Of a stretch of 64,000 nt of DNA, positions 12,035-21,846 are shown one piece after another. Position numbers and translations under genes: made by a program. This stretch comes from Firmicutes bacterium FC7 (GTDB lineage Bacteria > Bacillota > Clostridia > Tissierellales > Tissierellaceae), in assembly GCA_022760735.1 (NCBI GenBank), contig JAKELU010000008.1:1304-65303 (forward strand), given 5' to 3'. Under the pieces are notes generated by a model. It had not been told where the DNA came from. It ran no database searches and saw nothing but the letters and a program-made list of their open reading frames with translations. The stretch's first letter is position 1. Every line of letters begins with the position of its first letter.

Positions 12035-12481
12035 ATGAAAATTAGAAAATCATTATTAGCTGTAGGTGCATCAGTAATCCTTTTAGGTTCAAGCGCAGTT
12101 TTTTCAGAACCTGGTTCAGAAACTGATCCGTTAGTTACACTAAGCTATGTAAATAAGAGTATAGAGCAGATAAAATCATATATAGATGAAAAATTAAGTA
12201 TTCAGAAGAACTCAGAAAATGAATTAGAAGTAGTTAATTTGGCAAAGGGACAATACTTAATTGCTAAGGCAGGAACAGAGATAATTTTAAGAAGCGGTAA
12301 GGCCGTAGCAGTTGTAAGTGAATTAGGAGGATTAACGGATGTAACCGCAGGCGTAGACTTAGCAAAAGATGAAAATGTACCAACTAACCATCTCCTAATT
12401 ATACCAAGAAATGATGGAAGAGGATTATATTGTCTTACTGAAACCTATATTATGGTTAGAGGAGAGTACGAAATTAAATAA
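12035..12481 (+). CDS. Secreted protein of unknown function
   Basis: A 148-residue protein with a clear signal peptide (MKIRKSLLAVGASVILLGSS, cleavage probably after VFS). A short helical stretch (YVNKSIEQIKSYIDEKLS) precedes a compact beta-rich domain (GQYLIAKAGTEIILRSGKAV and NHLLIIPRNDGRGLYC). I believe similar exported proteins exist in other Clostridia but I cannot assign a function. AGGGGTG lies before the ATG. It stands alone, 81 bp upstream of the glycosyltransferase operon. Confidence 0.75.
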   Translation: MKIRKSLLAVGASVILLGSSAVFSEPGSETDPLVTLSYVNKSIEQIKSYIDEKLSIQKNSENELEVVNLAKGQYLIAKAGTEIILRSGKAVAVVSELGGLTDVTAGVDLAKDENVPTNHLLIIPRNDGRGLYCLTETYIMVRGEYEIK

Positions 12482-12562: not shown

Positions 12563-13684
12563 ATGAAAGTACTGCATCTAATCAGCGGAGGCGATACTGG
12601 AGGAGCTAAGACTCATATTATATCGCTTATTAAAGGTTTAGATAAGTTAATAGATGCAAAGGTAGTCTGTTTTATTGAAGATACATTTTATGAAGATGCT
12701 AAAAAAGAAGGAATTGACATAGACGTTTATGAGCAAAAGAACAGATCAGATTTAAGTGTTGTGAAAAGGTTAGCCAATTTAGTTAATGAGGAAGGATTTG
12801 ATATTGTTCACTGTCATGGAGCACGTGCTAATTTTATAGCTATGTTTTTAAAAAATAAAATTAATACCCCCATGATTACAACGATACACAGCGACTATAA
12901 GCTTGACTTTAAGGATAATCTATATAAAAGACTGATATTTACAACTTTAAATACCATTGCTTTGAAGAAATTTAAATATTTTATAGCAATATCCGATACT
13001 TTTAAGGATATGCTTGTAGAAAGAGGCTTTAAAAGGAATAGCATTTTTGTATCATATAATGGTATAGATTTTGAATCGGATTTAAAATATGTTCCAAAAT
13101 CAGAGTTTTTATCAAAGTATAACATTGATTATGATGGTAAAATCATAGTAGGGATTTTAGCCAGATTGGATTTAGTAAAGGACCATGAAACCTTTATAAA
13201 AGCAGCTAAAGAAGTTCTTACGATTAGAGATGATATTGTATTTTTAATTGGTGGTAGTGGAAATAACGAGAACAGATTAAAGCATCTGGTATCTGACTTT
13301 GGAATAGAAAAAAATGTTAGTTTTCTTGGCTATATAAATGATCCTGATTCATTTATGAACGCAATAGATATTAATGTTTTAACTTCAGTTAGTGAAAGCT
13401 TCCCTTATGTTATACTAGAGGGTGCAAGAATGGCTAAGCCAGTTATATCTACAAATGTAGGCGGAATAAGCAATCTTATCAAAGATGGATATAATGGATA
13501 TTTAATCGATGTTGGTGATTACAAAATGCTGGCCGAAAGAATTCTAACATTTTCTAATAATAAGAGTATACTTGAAGCTATGGGGTTAAATCTATTTAAA
13601 GAGGCAAAGGCAAATTATTCCTACGATTCAATGGCAAAGACACATATAGAAATATACAAAAAAATCTTAGAAAACAAAAGGTAA
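12563..13684 (+). CDS. GT4-family glycosyltransferase
   Basis: A 373-residue GT-B glycosyltransferase. The N-terminal acceptor lobe starts LHLISGGDTGGAKTHI and holds VHCHGARANF; the C-terminal nucleotide-sugar lobe has VGILARLDLVKDHETFI, ISVLTSVSE-type VLTSVSESFPYVILEGARM and GGISNLIKDGYNGYL, the E-x7-E type retaining GT4 signature. It transfers a sugar from an activated donor to a cell-surface polymer or lipid intermediate. It heads an operon with csaB and tagA (10- and 8-bp gaps). Donor and acceptor are unknown. Confidence 0.9.
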   Translation: MKVLHLISGGDTGGAKTHIISLIKGLDKLIDAKVVCFIEDTFYEDAKKEGIDIDVYEQKNRSDLSVVKRLANLVNEEGFDIVHCHGARANFIAMFLKNKINTPMITTIHSDYKLDFKDNLYKRLIFTTLNTIALKKFKYFIAISDTFKDMLVERGFKRNSIFVSYNGIDFESDLKYVPKSEFLSKYNIDYDGKIIVGILARLDLVKDHETFIKAAKEVLTIRDDIVFLIGGSGNNENRLKHLVSDFGIEKNVSFLGYINDPDSFMNAIDINVLTSVSESFPYVILEGARMAKPVISTNVGGISNLIKDGYNGYLIDVGDYKMLAERILTFSNNKSILEAMGLNLFKEAKANYSYDSMAKTHIEIYKKILENKR

Positions 13685-13694
13685 GGAGATTATT

Positions 13695-14795
13695 ATGGGA
13701 CATGTTAAAAGGATACTTATGTCTGGTTACTATGGTTTTGATAATAGTGGAGATGATGCTATATTAAAGGCTATAGTCAATGACTTAAGAGAAACAGATG
13801 AAAGTTTGAATATAACTGTGCTATCTAATAACCCTGCTAAAACAGAGAAAATGTATCCAGTTAAGGCTGTTAATAGATTTAAATTTAGCGATGTCTTTAG
13901 AGCTGTAAAGGAAACGTCGTTACTTATTAGTGGAGGCGGTAGTCTATTACAGGATGTAACAAGTACAAGATCTCTGTTATACTATCTAGGTGTAATGTCT
14001 TTAGCCAAAATTTTTAATAAATCCGTAATGGTATATGCTAATGGAATTGGACCAGTTAATGGAAGGTTCAATAGATTCTTAACAAAGCTAGTATTAAATA
14101 AGGTAGATTTAATCACATTAAGAGATCAGATGTCTAAGGATTATCTTGAGGAAATGGGTGTAAACAATAAAGAAATTTATGTGACTTCAGACCCAGTTTT
14201 CACACTTGAACCATCATCTAGAGAAGTTGTACAAAAAATATTTATAGATGAAGGAATACCCCAAGGGGAACGTCTACTAGGCATATCCATTAGGGAATGG
14301 AAAAAAGCCAATAATCTTGAATCAAAAATAGCTGAAACTATAGACTATTTAATAGAAAAGTATAATGTTAAAGTAGTATTGATACCAATGCACTATCCTG
14401 AAGATTTAAAAATAAGTAAAGAAGTACTTAATCTAGTTCAAAGGGATGGTTGTTATATATTAAGCAAAAAGTATACTGTTGAGGAGATTATGGGTGTTAT
14501 TAAGGAGTTAGATCTCATAGTTGCTATGAGGCTACATTCACTAATTTATGCCGCAACTCAGTCCATACCAATGGTAGGATTGGTTTATGATCCAAAAGTT
14601 GAAGGTCTATTAAATAGCATTGGGATGACATATATGATTGATGTGGAGAATTTTAGTACAAAGGATTTAATTGCTGATATAGACAATGTATGGAGTAATA
14701 AAGATGATATAAAGAAAGTATTAACAAAGCAAAAGGAAGATTTGAAGAAACTTGCTTTACAAAATGTAAAATATGCCTATGATATGTTAAGGTAG
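13695..14795 (+). CDS. csaB: Polysaccharide pyruvyl transferase
   Basis: CsaB adds ketal-linked pyruvate to the secondary cell wall polymer, creating the ligand for SLH-domain surface proteins in Bacillus and related genera. The 366-residue protein matches CsaB from the start: MSGYYGFDNSGDDAILKAI, LLISGGGSLLQDVTSTRSLL, YANGIGPV, and the C-terminal AMRLHSLIYAATQSIPMVGL. AAGGAGAT precedes the ATG. Lying between a glycosyltransferase and TagA/WecG, it supports a pyruvylated wall polymer in this organism. No SLH protein is encoded in this window. Confidence 0.93.
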   Translation: MGHVKRILMSGYYGFDNSGDDAILKAIVNDLRETDESLNITVLSNNPAKTEKMYPVKAVNRFKFSDVFRAVKETSLLISGGGSLLQDVTSTRSLLYYLGVMSLAKIFNKSVMVYANGIGPVNGRFNRFLTKLVLNKVDLITLRDQMSKDYLEEMGVNNKEIYVTSDPVFTLEPSSREVVQKIFIDEGIPQGERLLGISIREWKKANNLESKIAETIDYLIEKYNVKVVLIPMHYPEDLKISKEVLNLVQRDGCYILSKKYTVEEIMGVIKELDLIVAMRLHSLIYAATQSIPMVGLVYDPKVEGLLNSIGMTYMIDVENFSTKDLIADIDNVWSNKDDIKKVLTKQKEDLKKLALQNVKYAYDMLR

Positions 14796-14803
14796 GTGAT
14801 TAA

Positions 14804-15559
14804 ATGAATATTGTGAATATATTTGGTGTAAATATACATAATACTACTTTGGTTGAAACTGTAAATCTCCTTGATCAATATCTAAAAGGTGACAAGTTAA
14901 GAGTAATATATACACCAAATACCGAAATAGTTATGGCAGCAAAGGATAATAAAGATTTAAAGGAATTAATAAACAAAGCTGATATTATAATACCAGATGG
15001 TATCGGACTTATTTATGGCTCTAGAATTAGAAAGCTGCCTTTAAAGGAAAGGGTAACTGGATTTGACACATCTATAGAGTTGCTAAAATTAGCTAATAAG
15101 AATTCTTATAGCTTATATCTGTTAGGTGGTAAGGAAGGTGTAGCTAAAGCCGCAGCAGAAAATATTAAGGAAAACTATCCAAATATTAGGATAGGAGGTT
15201 TCCATCATGGGTATTTTAAAGGAAGCCACCTTGGTTTAAAAAAACATCCAGAAGAGGAAGATATAATTAATGAAATAAATAAGGTTAACCCTGATATTAT
15301 ATTTGTTGGCTTTGGATTTCCTAAACAGGAAATTTGGATAGATTCTAATAAAGATAGACTTAAGGGAAGAGTAATAATAGGAAATGGTGGAGTGATGGAT
15401 GTACTTTCAGGAAACTCAAAAAGAGCACCAGAGATTTTTATAAAGTTGGGACTTGAGTGGTTATATAGGCTGCTTCAGGACCCTTCAAGGATAAAAAGAC
15501 AAATTGTATTACCAAAGTTTTTGATAGAAGTAATAATTAATAAAGATTCAATTCATTAA
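14804..15559 (+). CDS. tagA: WecG/TagA-family N-acetylmannosaminyltransferase
   Basis: GT26 enzyme that adds ManNAc to GlcNAc-PP-undecaprenol, the committing step for wall teichoic acid or secondary wall polymer linkage units. The 251-residue protein has the family features TPNTEIVMAAKDNKDLKEL, ADIIIPDGIGLIYGSRI, the YLLGGKEGVAKAAAE Rossmann segment, FVGFGFPKQEIWI and GNGGVMDVLSG; the conserved Asp of the PDGIG motif is present. It is translated 8 bp after csaB. The basic C-terminus (RIKRQIVLPKF) fits membrane association. Confidence 0.93.
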   Translation: MNIVNIFGVNIHNTTLVETVNLLDQYLKGDKLRVIYTPNTEIVMAAKDNKDLKELINKADIIIPDGIGLIYGSRIRKLPLKERVTGFDTSIELLKLANKNSYSLYLLGGKEGVAKAAAENIKENYPNIRIGGFHHGYFKGSHLGLKKHPEEEDIINEINKVNPDIIFVGFGFPKQEIWIDSNKDRLKGRVIIGNGGVMDVLSGNSKRAPEIFIKLGLEWLYRLLQDPSRIKRQIVLPKFLIEVIINKDSIH

Positions 15560-17660: not shown

Positions 17661-18098
17661 TTGAAGAGATATTTGATAGTTGGGTTAATTCTGATTGTCA
17701 TTCTAGGAGCCCTAATAGTTCCTAAAATACTAAAGAGTAATGATAATGAAGTCAGCTTTAAAGTAATAGATAAAGAAGAACTACCTACAGAAATTCAAGA
17801 AGCCTTACCAAAGTACATAATGGAGGAGAGGGCGCTTACTTGTAAGTTTAAGGACGAGATCTTTGTAATAGTTACTAGAGGCGAGAAGAAATCAAAGGGG
17901 TACTTTGTTGATATTGAAAGTATAGAGAAGGAGTACTATGGTGAGGATAAATTTGATTTGGTGGTTAAGGCTAAATTTATAGATCCTAAACCAGATGAAA
18001 TAGTTACACAAGAATATGATTATCCAATAATTGTAGTAAAGACAAATTTAAAGGAGATGCCTCAAGCAGTTCATTTAGATATTGAGTATGCAGATTGA
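17661..18098 (+). CDS. Membrane-anchored protein with PrcB-like C-terminal domain
   Basis: A 145-residue protein with one N-terminal membrane segment (YLIVGLILIVILGALIV) and an external domain. The part from about residue 70 (FVIVTRGEKKSKGYFVDIES to DEIVTQEYDYPIIVVKT) matches the pattern of the PrcB C-terminal domain known from spirochaete protease complexes and many Firmicute surface proteins. Start is TTG 17661 after GGGGGGAT. The role is unknown. It sits between transketolase and a glycosyltransferase and has its own strong terminator. Confidence 0.72.
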   Translation: MKRYLIVGLILIVILGALIVPKILKSNDNEVSFKVIDKEELPTEIQEALPKYIMEERALTCKFKDEIFVIVTRGEKKSKGYFVDIESIEKEYYGEDKFDLVVKAKFIDPKPDEIVTQEYDYPIIVVKTNLKEMPQAVHLDIEYAD

Positions 18099-18128
18099 TG
18101 GGAAGCAAAAATAGCTTCCTATTTTTTT
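18099..18128 (+). terminator. Terminator after the PrcB-like gene
   Basis: Perfect GGAAGC/GCTTCC stem (18101-18119) followed by ATTTTTTT. Confidence 0.9.
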
Positions 18129-18273: not shown

Positions 18274-19380
18274 ATGCTTAAAGTCTTACACTTATTAAAT
18301 TACCTAGGTAATGGTGGTACAGAAGTATATATACAATCCTTAGCTAAAAAGTTACATAATAAAAAATGTAAGTTTTATATTGCTTATTCAGAAGACGGAA
18401 TAGGCAGAGAAATGTTCCAGGAACTTGGTATAGAGTTAATAAATCTAAACATGAAAAGTCCTTTCGATGTAGGAGCTGCTAAAAACTTAAAGAAGATATG
18501 CAAGGAGCTTTCTATAGATGTAATACATACACATTTCTTAAGAGAAAACTATATAAGTATTTTAAGTAATATCTGTGGGAATACTCCTAAAGTTATTAAT
18601 TCTAGACATATGCTATTTGAGAATTCAAAGTCTGTTATACTTATGAATAAGATATTCACAAGAAAAAATGATTATATTATAGCAGTAAGTCAAAGTGTAA
18701 AAGATCAATTAATATCAGAAGGAATTTCTGAAGATAAGATAAGGCTTATTTATACAGGTATAGACCTAGACGAATGGAATAGTCAATGCACCTTATCATT
18801 TAGAAAAGAATTTAATATCCTTGATGATGAACTACTTATTACTTCGGTTTCAAGATTTTCTGAAGAAAAGGGACATGATTTCTTTTTAGATGTAATTAAA
18901 GATTTTGAAGGGTATGTTAAAGAAAATAATTTATCTATAGGGAAGTACAGATTTGTTCTTGTTGGAGATGGTATCTTACTAGACTCTATGAAGGAAAAGG
19001 CATTTAAACTTGGGATTCAAGATAAAATCATATTTACTGGATTTAGAAGAGATATAAAAAATATACTGAAATCTTCAGACATCTTTATATCCCATTCAAA
19101 GAATGAAGCTTTTGGAATTTCCTTATTAGAAGCAATAGCAGCAAATTTACCAGTTATAACTACAGACAGTGGTGGAACCAAGGAAATTATAAATAATGAT
19201 TTTGAAAATGGAATTTTAGTTGAATTTGGAAATAAGAAAGAAATGGCGTTAAACTTATTAAAATTAATTGAGGATGATTATTTGCGTAATAAAATGAGGG
19301 AAAAGGCCTATGAAATAGTAAAAGATAGATTTACTCTTGATAAAACAGCTGAGAGAACATATAATCTTTATGAAGTTTAA
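18274..19380 (+). CDS. GT4-family glycosyltransferase
   Basis: A 368-residue GT-B enzyme, similar in size and layout to the one at 12563 but clearly distinct in sequence. N-terminal LHLLNYLGNGGTEVYIQSLA and IDVIHTHFLRENYISIL; C-terminal SVSRFSEEKGHDFF, KIIFTGFRRDI, and ISHSKNEAFGISLLEAIAAN with the paired glutamates of GT4. It likely adds a sugar to the same surface polymer handled by the following DUF4330 proteins and the ligase-like protein. Gap to the next gene is 17 bp, one operon. Sugar specificity is unknown. Confidence 0.9.
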   Translation: MLKVLHLLNYLGNGGTEVYIQSLAKKLHNKKCKFYIAYSEDGIGREMFQELGIELINLNMKSPFDVGAAKNLKKICKELSIDVIHTHFLRENYISILSNICGNTPKVINSRHMLFENSKSVILMNKIFTRKNDYIIAVSQSVKDQLISEGISEDKIRLIYTGIDLDEWNSQCTLSFRKEFNILDDELLITSVSRFSEEKGHDFFLDVIKDFEGYVKENNLSIGKYRFVLVGDGILLDSMKEKAFKLGIQDKIIFTGFRRDIKNILKSSDIFISHSKNEAFGISLLEAIAANLPVITTDSGGTKEIINNDFENGILVEFGNKKEMALNLLKLIEDDYLRNKMREKAYEIVKDRFTLDKTAERTYNLYEV

Positions 19381-19397
19381 ACAAAGGAAGGGATAGA

Positions 19398-19886
19398 ATG
19401 CTAGACAAGAATGGAAAGTTATTTGGGAAGATAAGCATAATAGATATAATAATAGTATTAGCAATTATATTTGCCGGTATTTTTGTGGTAAATAAAATAG
19501 GGATTTTTAAGCCTGAAACTATTATTACAAATAGTGGGGACAAGTTAAAAATTACCTTTTATCAGGAAGAAGTAAATAGCTTCACTGCAAATAATGTAGA
19601 AATAGGTGATCCGACTACAGAAACTTTACAAAATATGAGCTTTGGAAATGTTGTAGAAATAGAGGTTGGACCTTCTGTTTCCTGGGGAACTGACAAGGAT
19701 GGAAGACAGGTTAAATCAACTAAGGAAGGTTGGTCATCGATTTCTATAACTATGGAGACAAATGGCAAGTTAGGCCCTAATGGCATAAACATTGGTGGTT
19801 CAAATTATTATATAGGACAGTTTATTACACTTAGAGTGGGGGATTCAATATTTTACGGAAGAATCTCAAATGCTGAAAAGCTTTAG
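19398..19886 (+). CDS. DUF4330 membrane-anchored protein (first copy)
   Basis: A 162-residue protein. Residues 1-12 form a short cytoplasmic lead (LDKNGKLFGKISIID), then one membrane helix (IIIVLAIIFAGIFVV) and a beta-rich outer domain. The lead plus helix matches the DUF4330 family. The outer domain carries GDPTTETLQNMSFGNVVEIE and GPSVSW motifs that recur in the next gene. No enzymatic motif is seen. Its position between a GT4 enzyme and an O-antigen-ligase-like protein points to export or assembly of a polysaccharide. Confidence 0.8.
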   Translation: MLDKNGKLFGKISIIDIIIVLAIIFAGIFVVNKIGIFKPETIITNSGDKLKITFYQEEVNSFTANNVEIGDPTTETLQNMSFGNVVEIEVGPSVSWGTDKDGRQVKSTKEGWSSISITMETNGKLGPNGINIGGSNYYIGQFITLRVGDSIFYGRISNAEKL

Positions 19887-19897
19887 GAGGTATTAGC

Positions 19898-20371
19898 ATG
19901 AAAAGAAAATTTACCTTTATAGATTTTATCATTATTTTAGTAGTAGCTATAGGTATTATAGGGATAAGTGGAAAATTTGAAACAGCAAAAGTAGCTGCAC
20001 CTGTTGGCAAATCTAATGAGGAAATATATATAACATTTTATATTGAGGAAACACCAGACTTTGTAATTGATGCAATATCAATTGGAGATCCTGTAACAGA
20101 ATCAGTACAAGGATCTAACTTTGGAGAAGTTGTAGAAATAAAACCTGGGCCATCCATTTACTGGAAAGAAAATGAAGATGGCCATTTAGTATCATCAAGT
20201 AGAGAAGGATACTCTTCACTTTATTTAAAAATGAAGACCAACGGTATTATTAGTGGAAGTGGTGTATCAATAGATAAGTCTGTTTACTATGTTGGACAGA
20301 CAGTTACTCTATATGCTGGTAATTCTATATTGAAGGATGGCAGAATTTCAGATGCAACCTTAATAGACTAA
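19898..20371 (+). CDS. DUF4330 membrane-anchored protein (second copy)
   Basis: A 157-residue paralogue of the preceding protein: membrane helix near the N-terminus (FIDFIIILVVAIGIIGI), then an outer domain repeating the same landmarks (SIGDPVTESVQGSNFGEVVE, GPSIYW, VYYVGQTVTLYAGNS). The two copies are clearly diverged, so the duplication is not recent. AGGAGG precedes the ATG, 11 bp after copy one, and the stop overlaps the start of the next gene by 1 bp. They may act as a heterodimer, which is inference. Confidence 0.8.
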   Translation: MKRKFTFIDFIIILVVAIGIIGISGKFETAKVAAPVGKSNEEIYITFYIEETPDFVIDAISIGDPVTESVQGSNFGEVVEIKPGPSIYWKENEDGHLVSSSREGYSSLYLKMKTNGIISGSGVSIDKSVYYVGQTVTLYAGNSILKDGRISDATLID

Positions 20372-21822
20372 TGAAAAGGATGAACAGTATGAGAAATTAT
20401 ATTCAAGCTTTACTTAACAACAGCAAAATAATATCATCCTTTAAAGAACCTGACAAACTTAATAGTATATGGGAGGATAGTCTTTTCTATAGATTTTTAA
20501 ATTTAATAATTAATACACCTTTTACATGGCTACAAAAAGTGTACTCAAGACATGAAAGTTTATTTTTATCAAGTATTATAGGTAAAATTTTAATGTTTCT
20601 TGCAAAGCACCTAAATATACTTGTTGGGATGATATTAGTAATAACTATGATAATACCAGATAATAGATGGTATAACTTATATGGAGTAATATTAACTTTT
20701 GGTCTTTTTTTAATGTTTATTATAAAAGTAATTATTACAGAAGACTTAAGGGTTAATTTTAGCAATATTGATTTTACCATAATAATATTTTTTATAAGCA
20801 TTTTTATAGCAGCAGTTACTTCTCTATTTCCTACTGATAGTATAAACTATTTAATATACTATTTTATAACGTTTTTAACACTTGTAATTATAGTTAGCTC
20901 TATAAATTCCTTTGATGAGCTATATAGTATGATAAAGTTAATACTAATTGGAGCCATACTTACAGCTCTATATGGTGCTTATCAATGGCTAGTAGTTGGG
21001 ATAGAGGTAAATCCTTCATTAACGGACTTAACTATAAACCAGGGAATGGGTGGAAGGGTTTATTCAACAATGGGCAACCCAAATATATATGGTGAGCTGC
21101 TAGTACTAACATTACCATTCTTTGGACCAGTTATATTAAATGAAAAGTCAATATTTAAAAAACTCCTATGGGGAGTAATGCTATTACCTGTATTAGTTAT
21201 ATTATTAAAAACAGGTTCGAGATCTGCGTGGATTTCATTTGCGTTTGCAGTTTTTGTATTCGTATTTTTTTGGAATAAGAAATTTGTGCCATATATGATA
21301 TTGGTAGGTCTTTTGGCAATACCATTTTTACCTAGTTCAATCTATAAGAGGATTTTAACAATTTTTAATCCTAATGATACATCACTGCAATACAGGCAGA
21401 GAATCTTAGGACCTGCTTTTTCGATGTTAAAGGATTATTGGATTACTGGAGTAGGCTTAGGTAATAGAGTTTTTGCAGTGATTTATCAAAGATATAAATC
21501 TTTTGGTCTTACTACTGTAGCGCATACACATAATCTTTATGTACAGATTTGGTTAGAAACAGGTGTTATGTCAATATTATCATTTATATACATGATGATT
21601 AGAATGATAAAACATACTTTTGTTGCAATAAGATTTAAAAAGGATAAAAGGCTAAATACTATTTTAGTAGCAGCATTATCAGGAATTTTAGGACTGTGTG
21701 TAATGGGTTTAGCTGATCACGTTTGGTTCTATAATCGAATACTATATATGTTCTGGATAAATGTTGCAATTATTTTAGCGGCATTGAAGTTAATAAGCTA
21801 TGCAGACAAAAAAGAAGCCTAA
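20371..21822 (+). CDS. O-antigen ligase/polymerase-like membrane protein
   Basis: A 483-residue polytopic protein with 10 to 12 predicted membrane helices. The large loop GMGGRVYSTMGNPNIYGELL and the later GVGLGNRVFAVIYQRY and HTHNLYVQIWLETGVMS segments are the landmarks of the Wzy/WaaL (PF04932) ligase-polymerase superfamily. Such proteins polymerise or transfer lipid-linked glycans outside the membrane. It is the last gene of the GT4-DUF4330-DUF4330 operon. The first about 60 residues form a cytoplasmic extension. Confidence 0.87.
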   Translation: MKRMNSMRNYIQALLNNSKIISSFKEPDKLNSIWEDSLFYRFLNLIINTPFTWLQKVYSRHESLFLSSIIGKILMFLAKHLNILVGMILVITMIIPDNRWYNLYGVILTFGLFLMFIIKVIITEDLRVNFSNIDFTIIIFFISIFIAAVTSLFPTDSINYLIYYFITFLTLVIIVSSINSFDELYSMIKLILIGAILTALYGAYQWLVVGIEVNPSLTDLTINQGMGGRVYSTMGNPNIYGELLVLTLPFFGPVILNEKSIFKKLLWGVMLLPVLVILLKTGSRSAWISFAFAVFVFVFFWNKKFVPYMILVGLLAIPFLPSSIYKRILTIFNPNDTSLQYRQRILGPAFSMLKDYWITGVGLGNRVFAVIYQRYKSFGLTTVAHTHNLYVQIWLETGVMSILSFIYMMIRMIKHTFVAIRFKKDKRLNTILVAALSGILGLCVMGLADHVWFYNRILYMFWINVAIILAALKLISYADKKEA

Positions 21823-21846
21823 TTTATACTAATAGGCTTCTTTTTG
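21810..21846. terminator. Bidirectional terminator
   Basis: AAGAAGCCTA and TAGGCTTCTT pair around the ligase stop codon, with a T run on the right and an A run on the left. It separates the ligase gene from the convergent aminotransferase. Confidence 0.85.

Follow-up and report, generated by a model that had tools for sequence, protein, structure and literature searches.

Four genes packed into a single tight operon, encoding a GT4 glycosyltransferase, two DUF4330 proteins, and a Wzy_C-family membrane protein (hereafter Wzy), probably serve to polymerize, on the outer side of the membrane, the pyruvylated secondary cell wall polymer (SCWP) that anchors SLH-domain proteins, with DUF4330 acting as the partner of Wzy. 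The operon lies in a 64,000-nucleotide stretch of DNA from Firmicutes bacterium FC7 (the window), and across genomes DUF4330 is tied to CsaB, to SLH proteins, and to one type of Wzy. CsaB pyruvylates the ManNAc of the SCWP, which is the ligand of SLH domains, and both polymerization and ligation of this polymer have been called open questions, with WpaA and WpaB (PF13425) proposed for the task in Bacillus anthracis (PMC6030368). Two nearly exclusive candidate modules can now be named for the polymerization step—DUF4330-Wzy and DUF5693—and two uncharacterized families, of which we found no mention in the literature searched, gain a specific place in a known kind of pathway.

The operon and its setting

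How are the genes arranged? Gaps of 17 nt (GT4/DUF4330a) and 11 nt (DUF4330a/DUF4330b) separate the first three, while DUF4330b and the Wzy_C gene overlap by one base (TAATG). The three families represented (DUF4330 twice, Wzy_C, and GT4) all score well above their Pfam gathering cutoffs, which are 27.6 bits for DUF4330 and 31.7 bits for Wzy_C (Table 1). This tightly spaced GT4-DUF4330-DUF4330-Wzy_C operon had been described in an initial annotation made from the sequence, and its open reading frames were recovered to the base, with Pfam matches. A terminator-like hairpin precedes the operon, and at its 3′ end an inverted repeat that closes on a T run faces a convergent gene; the loop of this repeat, at 11, is longer than the hairpin scan allows, which is why it has no scan listing.

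The csaB gene is 3.5 kb upstream on the same strand, with wecG adjoining; the GT4-CsaB-WecG group as a whole sits 3–6 kb 5′ of the operon, and a transketolase gene and a PrcB_C gene stand between csaB-wecG and the operon. Elsewhere in the genome, 27 SLH repeats score above cutoff and two LCP genes (PF03816) are present; three marks of a CsaB-dependent SCWP locus—a CsaB equivalog, SLH proteins, and an LCP wall ligase—were thus found. The initial annotation had named the operon its best candidate for an undescribed system in the window; the nearby csaB and wecG and the many SLH proteins of the genome show that it does not stand alone. On the best reading, the polymer it helps to make is the SCWP that CsaB pyruvylates and SLH proteins bind.

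Table 1. The operon, its edges, and the csaB region in the window
Feature	Coordinates	Strand	Basis
Exported 148-aa ORF, unnamed family recurring at csaB loci	12035..12481	+	no Pfam/NCBIfam match
GT4 glycosyltransferase, 5′ of csaB	12563..13684	+	PF00534, 117.6 bits
CsaB, polysaccharide pyruvyl transferase, makes SLH ligand	13695..14795	+	TIGR03609, 302.7 bits (cutoff 213.1)
WecG/TagA/CpsF-family (ManNAc-type) transferase	14804..15559	+	PF03808, 210 bits; TIGR00696, 167.5 (cutoff 69)
Terminator-like hairpin, 5′ of operon	18097..18123	+	hairpin scan; 1.3 expected by chance in region
GT4 glycosyltransferase, operon gene 1	18274..19380	+	PF00534, 134.9 bits; PF13439, 81.1 bits
DUF4330 copy a (DUF4330a)	19398..19886	+	PF14221, 88.5 bits
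DUF4330 copy b (DUF4330b)	19898..20371	+	PF14221, 61.3 bits
Wzy_C-family multi-pass membrane protein, 483 aa, predicted SCWP polymerase	20371..21822	+	PF04932, 70.8 bits
Inverted repeat ending in T run, operon 3′ end	21810..21844	.	by eye

Neighbors and counterparts of DUF4330

How regularly does DUF4330 keep this company? Within 219 genomes of the Bacillota phylum, with up to 20 kb taken around each DUF4330, the family was found in 48 genomes and recovered in 49/49 loci (window included). A Wzy of the window's type lies no more than 10 kb from DUF4330 in 45 of the 49 loci in the open reading frame survey, with gene midpoints less than 1.8 kb apart in 35 of those 45; a genome-wide search added two adjacent pairs (genomes G026 and G051), and in the two loci still unaccounted for DUF4330 sits at a contig end. 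With Wzy within 10 kb at 47/49 loci, what the initial annotation had seen at one locus, a glycan context and the pairing of DUF4330 with Wzy_C, is thus general in this sample. The commonest order is GT4-DUF4330-Wzy-(GT4-DUF5693)-CsaB-WecG, and most loci have a GT4 gene ahead of DUF4330. TagO, LCP, UDP-sugar dehydrogenase, a MurJ-type flippase, and DUF5693 are other recurrent neighbors; together, the recurrent neighbors are what a Wzx/Wzy-type pathway ending in LCP ligation would need. In a separate collection of 80 named DUF4330 loci, Wzy was present in 64, the other 16 being cyanobacterial (ten), Flavonifractor-type (four, in three of which DUF4330 is divergent from an apparent GT4-CsaB fusion gene), or at contig ends (two). 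As a control, we took 20 CsaB loci in genomes that lack DUF4330: Wzy was nearby in 2/20 and DUF5693 adjoined CsaB in 19/20. Profile matches related to the 148-aa ORF family were found in 29/49, 27/80, and 12/20 loci.

We also asked which genes accompany DUF4330 at the level of whole genomes. CsaB (E < 1e-40) occurs in 182 genomes of the Bacillota sample, including 48/48 with DUF4330, and SLH proteins are present in all 48 as well. The profile of the DUF4330-linked Wzy (A5) has matches in 48/48 DUF4330 genomes, 45 of them at 250 bits or above, a figure that is partly circular and favors DUF4330 genomes because the profile was built from DUF4330 loci. At this score A5 also matches 11 genomes without DUF4330. 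Ten of these are CsaB-positive genomes with neither DUF4330 nor DUF5693, a group in which 10/16 carry such a Wzy.

Among CsaB-positive genomes, DUF4330 and DUF5693 (PF18949), a large multi-pass protein, are nearly exclusive: 11 have both, 37 DUF4330 only, 118 DUF5693 only, and 16 neither (Fisher P = 1.5e-16). Taking one genome per family (80 families) gave median counts of 4/17/54/5 and a median P of about 1e-9, and splits between the two occur inside families f20 and f26. The same comparison of Wzy (at least 250 bits) with DUF5693 (both/Wzy only/DUF5693 only/neither, 11/44/118/9; P = 7e-23) leans on the DUF4330 figure through A5, its independent part being the ten Wzy-positive genomes with neither DUF. 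Adjoining CsaB, DUF5693 stands in for DUF4330-Wzy in most Bacillota, and this nonhomologous neighbor probably performs the same step in many of them; the eleven genomes with both indicate that the two are not strictly interchangeable. Unlike single-pass DUF4330, DUF5693 crosses the membrane many times, and profile comparison detected no similarity between it and either DUF4330 or Wzy. The ideas that DUF5693 is a distant Wzy, MurJ, or TagO, or that DUF4330 is a piece of DUF5693, were set aside, as profile similarity was absent in each case. Control genomes with SLH proteins were those of Synechococcus elongatus, Thermus, Deinobacterium, and Thermotoga. Among the control genomes, DUF4330 was present only in S. 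elongatus, where DUF5693 was not found; DUF5693 was present in Thermus, Deinobacterium, Thermotoga, and Bacteroides ihuae, one of these four matches being below cutoff.

A candidate polymerase and its proposed partner

What kind of protein is DUF4330? The two copies in the operon, earlier described as diverged but sharing landmarks, are indeed 42% identical and both contain GDP.TE, GPS..W, and YY.GQ, which are confined to the window's bacterial family. DUF4330a and DUF4330b are nearer to their counterparts in a locus of the same family (L084; 58% and 51%, respectively) than to each other, and the duplication is therefore older than that split. Family searches found two copies in most genomes of the window's own family and one in most others; in this genome they found none outside the operon. 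D16 and G102 are the sole positions that never vary among the 76 homologues, and the near-invariant sites fall mostly in an N-terminal D-x-K-G-R-x-F-G-x-x-N motif; no other part of the family is as well conserved as this cytosolic motif (D-x-K-G-R/K-L-F-G). The motif is missing from DUF4330b, whose architecture is otherwise that of DUF4330a, for which the predicted layout is a short cytosolic motif, one transmembrane (TM) helix (residues 14–34), and extracytoplasmic beta domain (48–161). AlphaFold2 modeled DUF4330a, with the 76 homologues, at a pLDDT of 91.8, and its ectodomain alone at 93.8 (pTM 0.84), with about ten beta strands following the single TM helix. Foldseek returned no match to either model in the PDB at E ≤ 0.001, with a best TM-score of about 0.34 among the matches listed, and function is thus not readable from the fold; a sequence search of the PDB with DUF4330 and Wzy gave nothing meaningful. 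A G-x-P-V-x(6)-G-x-V-like motif in DUF4330 had raised the idea of an MCE (MlaD-like) ring protein, which was rejected: hhalign gave probabilities of 3–14% against MCE domains, and the 50 top-ranked matches that Foldseek listed include no MCE structure.

The Wzy_C protein of the operon finds its best NCBIfam model in IctB (TIGR00947), at 112 bits against an equivalog cutoff of 366, and scores 38.8 bits against the curated RfaL model NF012031 (cutoff 277). PF04932 spans polymerases and ligases without telling them apart; a polymerase is the more likely of the two, since wall ligation is expected from the LCP enzymes, two of which the genome encodes. Of the glycan export or ligation complex suggested in the initial annotation, the glycan context therefore stands, and ligation probably gives way to polymerization.

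Onto the observed gene run, family assignments, co-occurrence, and exclusivity with DUF5693 we can project established Wzx/Wzy and SCWP biochemistry. In the cytosol, GT4 and WecG-type enzymes would assemble a repeat linked to undecaprenyl, CsaB would pyruvylate it, a flippase would turn the pyruvylated repeat over the membrane, the Wzy_C protein would join the repeats outside, and LCP enzymes would fix the resulting chain onto peptidoglycan. DUF4330, single-pass with a beta ectodomain, may be a dedicated polymerase partner that holds the lipid-linked substrate or growing chain, or sets chain length; channel formation is another option. Its near-universal proximity to Wzy, together with its membrane topology, suggests this partnership, and in the window's clade, where the gene is duplicated, each Wzy may work with two DUF4330 subunits. 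The scheme resembles Wzx/Wzy/Wzz assembly, in which a Wzy-family polytopic protein joins lipid-linked repeats outside the membrane alongside a membrane-anchored co-protein, but Wzz and the PCP co-polymerase layout have two TM helices flanking a coiled-coil domain, and in DUF4330 a single TM helix is followed by a beta domain without a PDB match. WpaA and WpaB of B. anthracis also belong to the Wzy/WaaL clan and are expected to polymerize and ligate pyruvylated SCWP, a role likewise only proposed; they are, however, PF13425 members for which no DUF4330 partner has been described (PMC6030368).

Could the same genes serve another purpose? The operon might belong to the SCWP locus while DUF4330 receives, tethers, or exports the finished chain in the wall, independently of Wzy. 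The ectodomain fold gives no functional hint, and in a few loci (L048, L049, and L053) several genes separate DUF4330 from Wzy; nevertheless, the near-universal proximity of the two, and the way DUF4330 tracks Wzy and not simply CsaB, make such a separate role somewhat unlikely. The Wzy_C protein, for its part, might be a WaaL- or PglL-like ligase that moves finished pyruvylated glycan to protein, lipid, or peptidoglycan, with DUF4330 presenting the acceptor. We regard this as unlikely: two LCP genes are already available for wall ligation, any Wzy_C-type SCWP polymerization would require this gene because a genome search found it to be the only Wzy_C gene present, and a WaaL would have no lipid A-core substrate if the host is a monoderm. 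These points outweigh for us the inclusion of ligases in the Wzy_C family, an H-N-x9-G motif spotted by eye in the window protein and resembling that of WaaL, and weak matches of 19/26 homologues to a model for a putative exosortase-linked O-glycosylation ligase.

A further alternative, in which the operon serves some other surface polysaccharide and owes its place near csaB to the clustering of glycan genes, would suit the transketolase and PrcB_C genes that intervene and a genome of the same family (G180) in which csaB is on another contig. Such a coincidence is very unlikely given the 48/48 co-occurrence with CsaB and SLH proteins and the exclusivity with DUF5693, itself a CsaB neighbor.

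DUF4330 and IctB in cyanobacteria

How far beyond the Bacillota does DUF4330 extend? It is present in 76/78 cyanobacterial genomes, one copy each, and the Gram-positive scope originally assigned to it was accordingly too narrow. The cyanobacterial genes are unclustered with glycan genes and are near neither ictB nor csaB; cyanobacteria scatter pathway genes. The possibility that DUF4330 genes mostly lie away from glycan genes, named at the outset as the observation that would count against a glycan role, thus does not hold in Bacillota and does hold in cyanobacteria.

The A5 Wzy profile gave one clear top match in each of ten DUF4330-positive cyanobacteria (10/10; 250–287 bits, runner-up at most 112), and all six of these that were scanned are IctB (TIGR00947, 522–641 bits). 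The ten form one clade in the Wzy tree, which does not settle where IctB branches among the DUF4330-linked Wzy. Conversely, 26/26 DUF4330-linked Wzy match the IctB model, and the IctB profile puts 24 of these 26 above all other cyanobacterial Wzy_C proteins tested (54–175 vs. at most 39 bits). IctB is thus the nearest named family to the window Wzy and shares with it conserved R229, R284, R327, and R342, most of which are general to Wzy_C; the distance is nonetheless large, as the window protein falls far below the IctB cutoff.

Tentatively, we suggest that DUF4330 and an IctB-type Wzy may form a polymerase complex of ancient origin, common to clostridia and cyanobacteria, that builds the SLH-anchoring polymer and in which IctB would be an envelope glycan polymerase and not a carbon transporter; unrelated DUF5693 would do the same job in most other CsaB-positive Bacillota. 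The bicarbonate transport first proposed for IctB has been challenged and is disputed, although the protein has been put into crops as such a putative transporter (PMC7861388). Its polymerase-type domains have been remarked on as unexplained (PMC4594306). Counting against the proposal are the distance of DUF4330 from ictB and csaB in cyanobacteria and a reported absence of IctB-group sequences from one Prochlorococcus clade (PMC4594306). IctB gains a testable role, and DUF4330-IctB as the cyanobacterial version of the complex is the claim most worth testing. In Synechocystis, suppression of the csaB homologue slr0688 depletes pyruvylated wall polysaccharide and thereby detaches the outer membrane (PMC9163127), indicating that the polymer needed by the model exists in cyanobacteria.

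Tandem DUF4330 copies and the linked predicted polymerase

A cytosolic N-terminal motif, otherwise highly conserved, is often missing from one copy of a duplicated DUF4330 (window 19898-20371; loci L071, L084, and L120), suggesting that labour is divided between the copies. Both tandem copies lack it in L084, which comes from the window's own bacterial family. In cyanobacterial genomes (L222-L231), the closest relative of the DUF4330-linked Wzy, a predicted polymerase, is the disputed "bicarbonate transporter" IctB.

Neighbours of CsaB

In Bacillota without DUF4330, the standard neighbour of the pyruvyl transferase CsaB is DUF5693 (PF18949), judging from 20 CsaB loci (L200-L219), of which 19 have it, and from a search of the genome sample for DUF5693. 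No mention of this protein of ~640 aa was found in the literature searched; its N-terminus is hydrophobic, it contains a long hydrophilic stretch, and its C-terminal half is multi-pass. The exported ORF matched nothing in Pfam or NCBIfam; its profile recovered relatives at csaB loci (29/49 with DUF4330 and 12/20 with DUF5693) but may be impure, because longer proteins were also caught.

Features at the surveyed loci
Feature	Coordinates	Remark
Exported ORF, 148 aa	window 12035-12481	unnamed family
PrcB_C-domain ORF	window 17661-18098	between wecG and operon
Apparent GT4-CsaB fusion	L160:5650-7881; also L146, L159	Flavonifractor-type genomes

Intervening genes and an apparent fusion

A transketolase gene also lies between wecG and the GT4-DUF4330-Wzy operon; its family recurs in ~10 surveyed loci, across which no recurrence of the PrcB_C-domain ORF was found. 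The apparent fusion, a single protein of 743-766 aa, is encoded divergently from DUF4330, and CsaB lies inside ~740-aa frames in other genomes too (e.g., G180, of the window's family).
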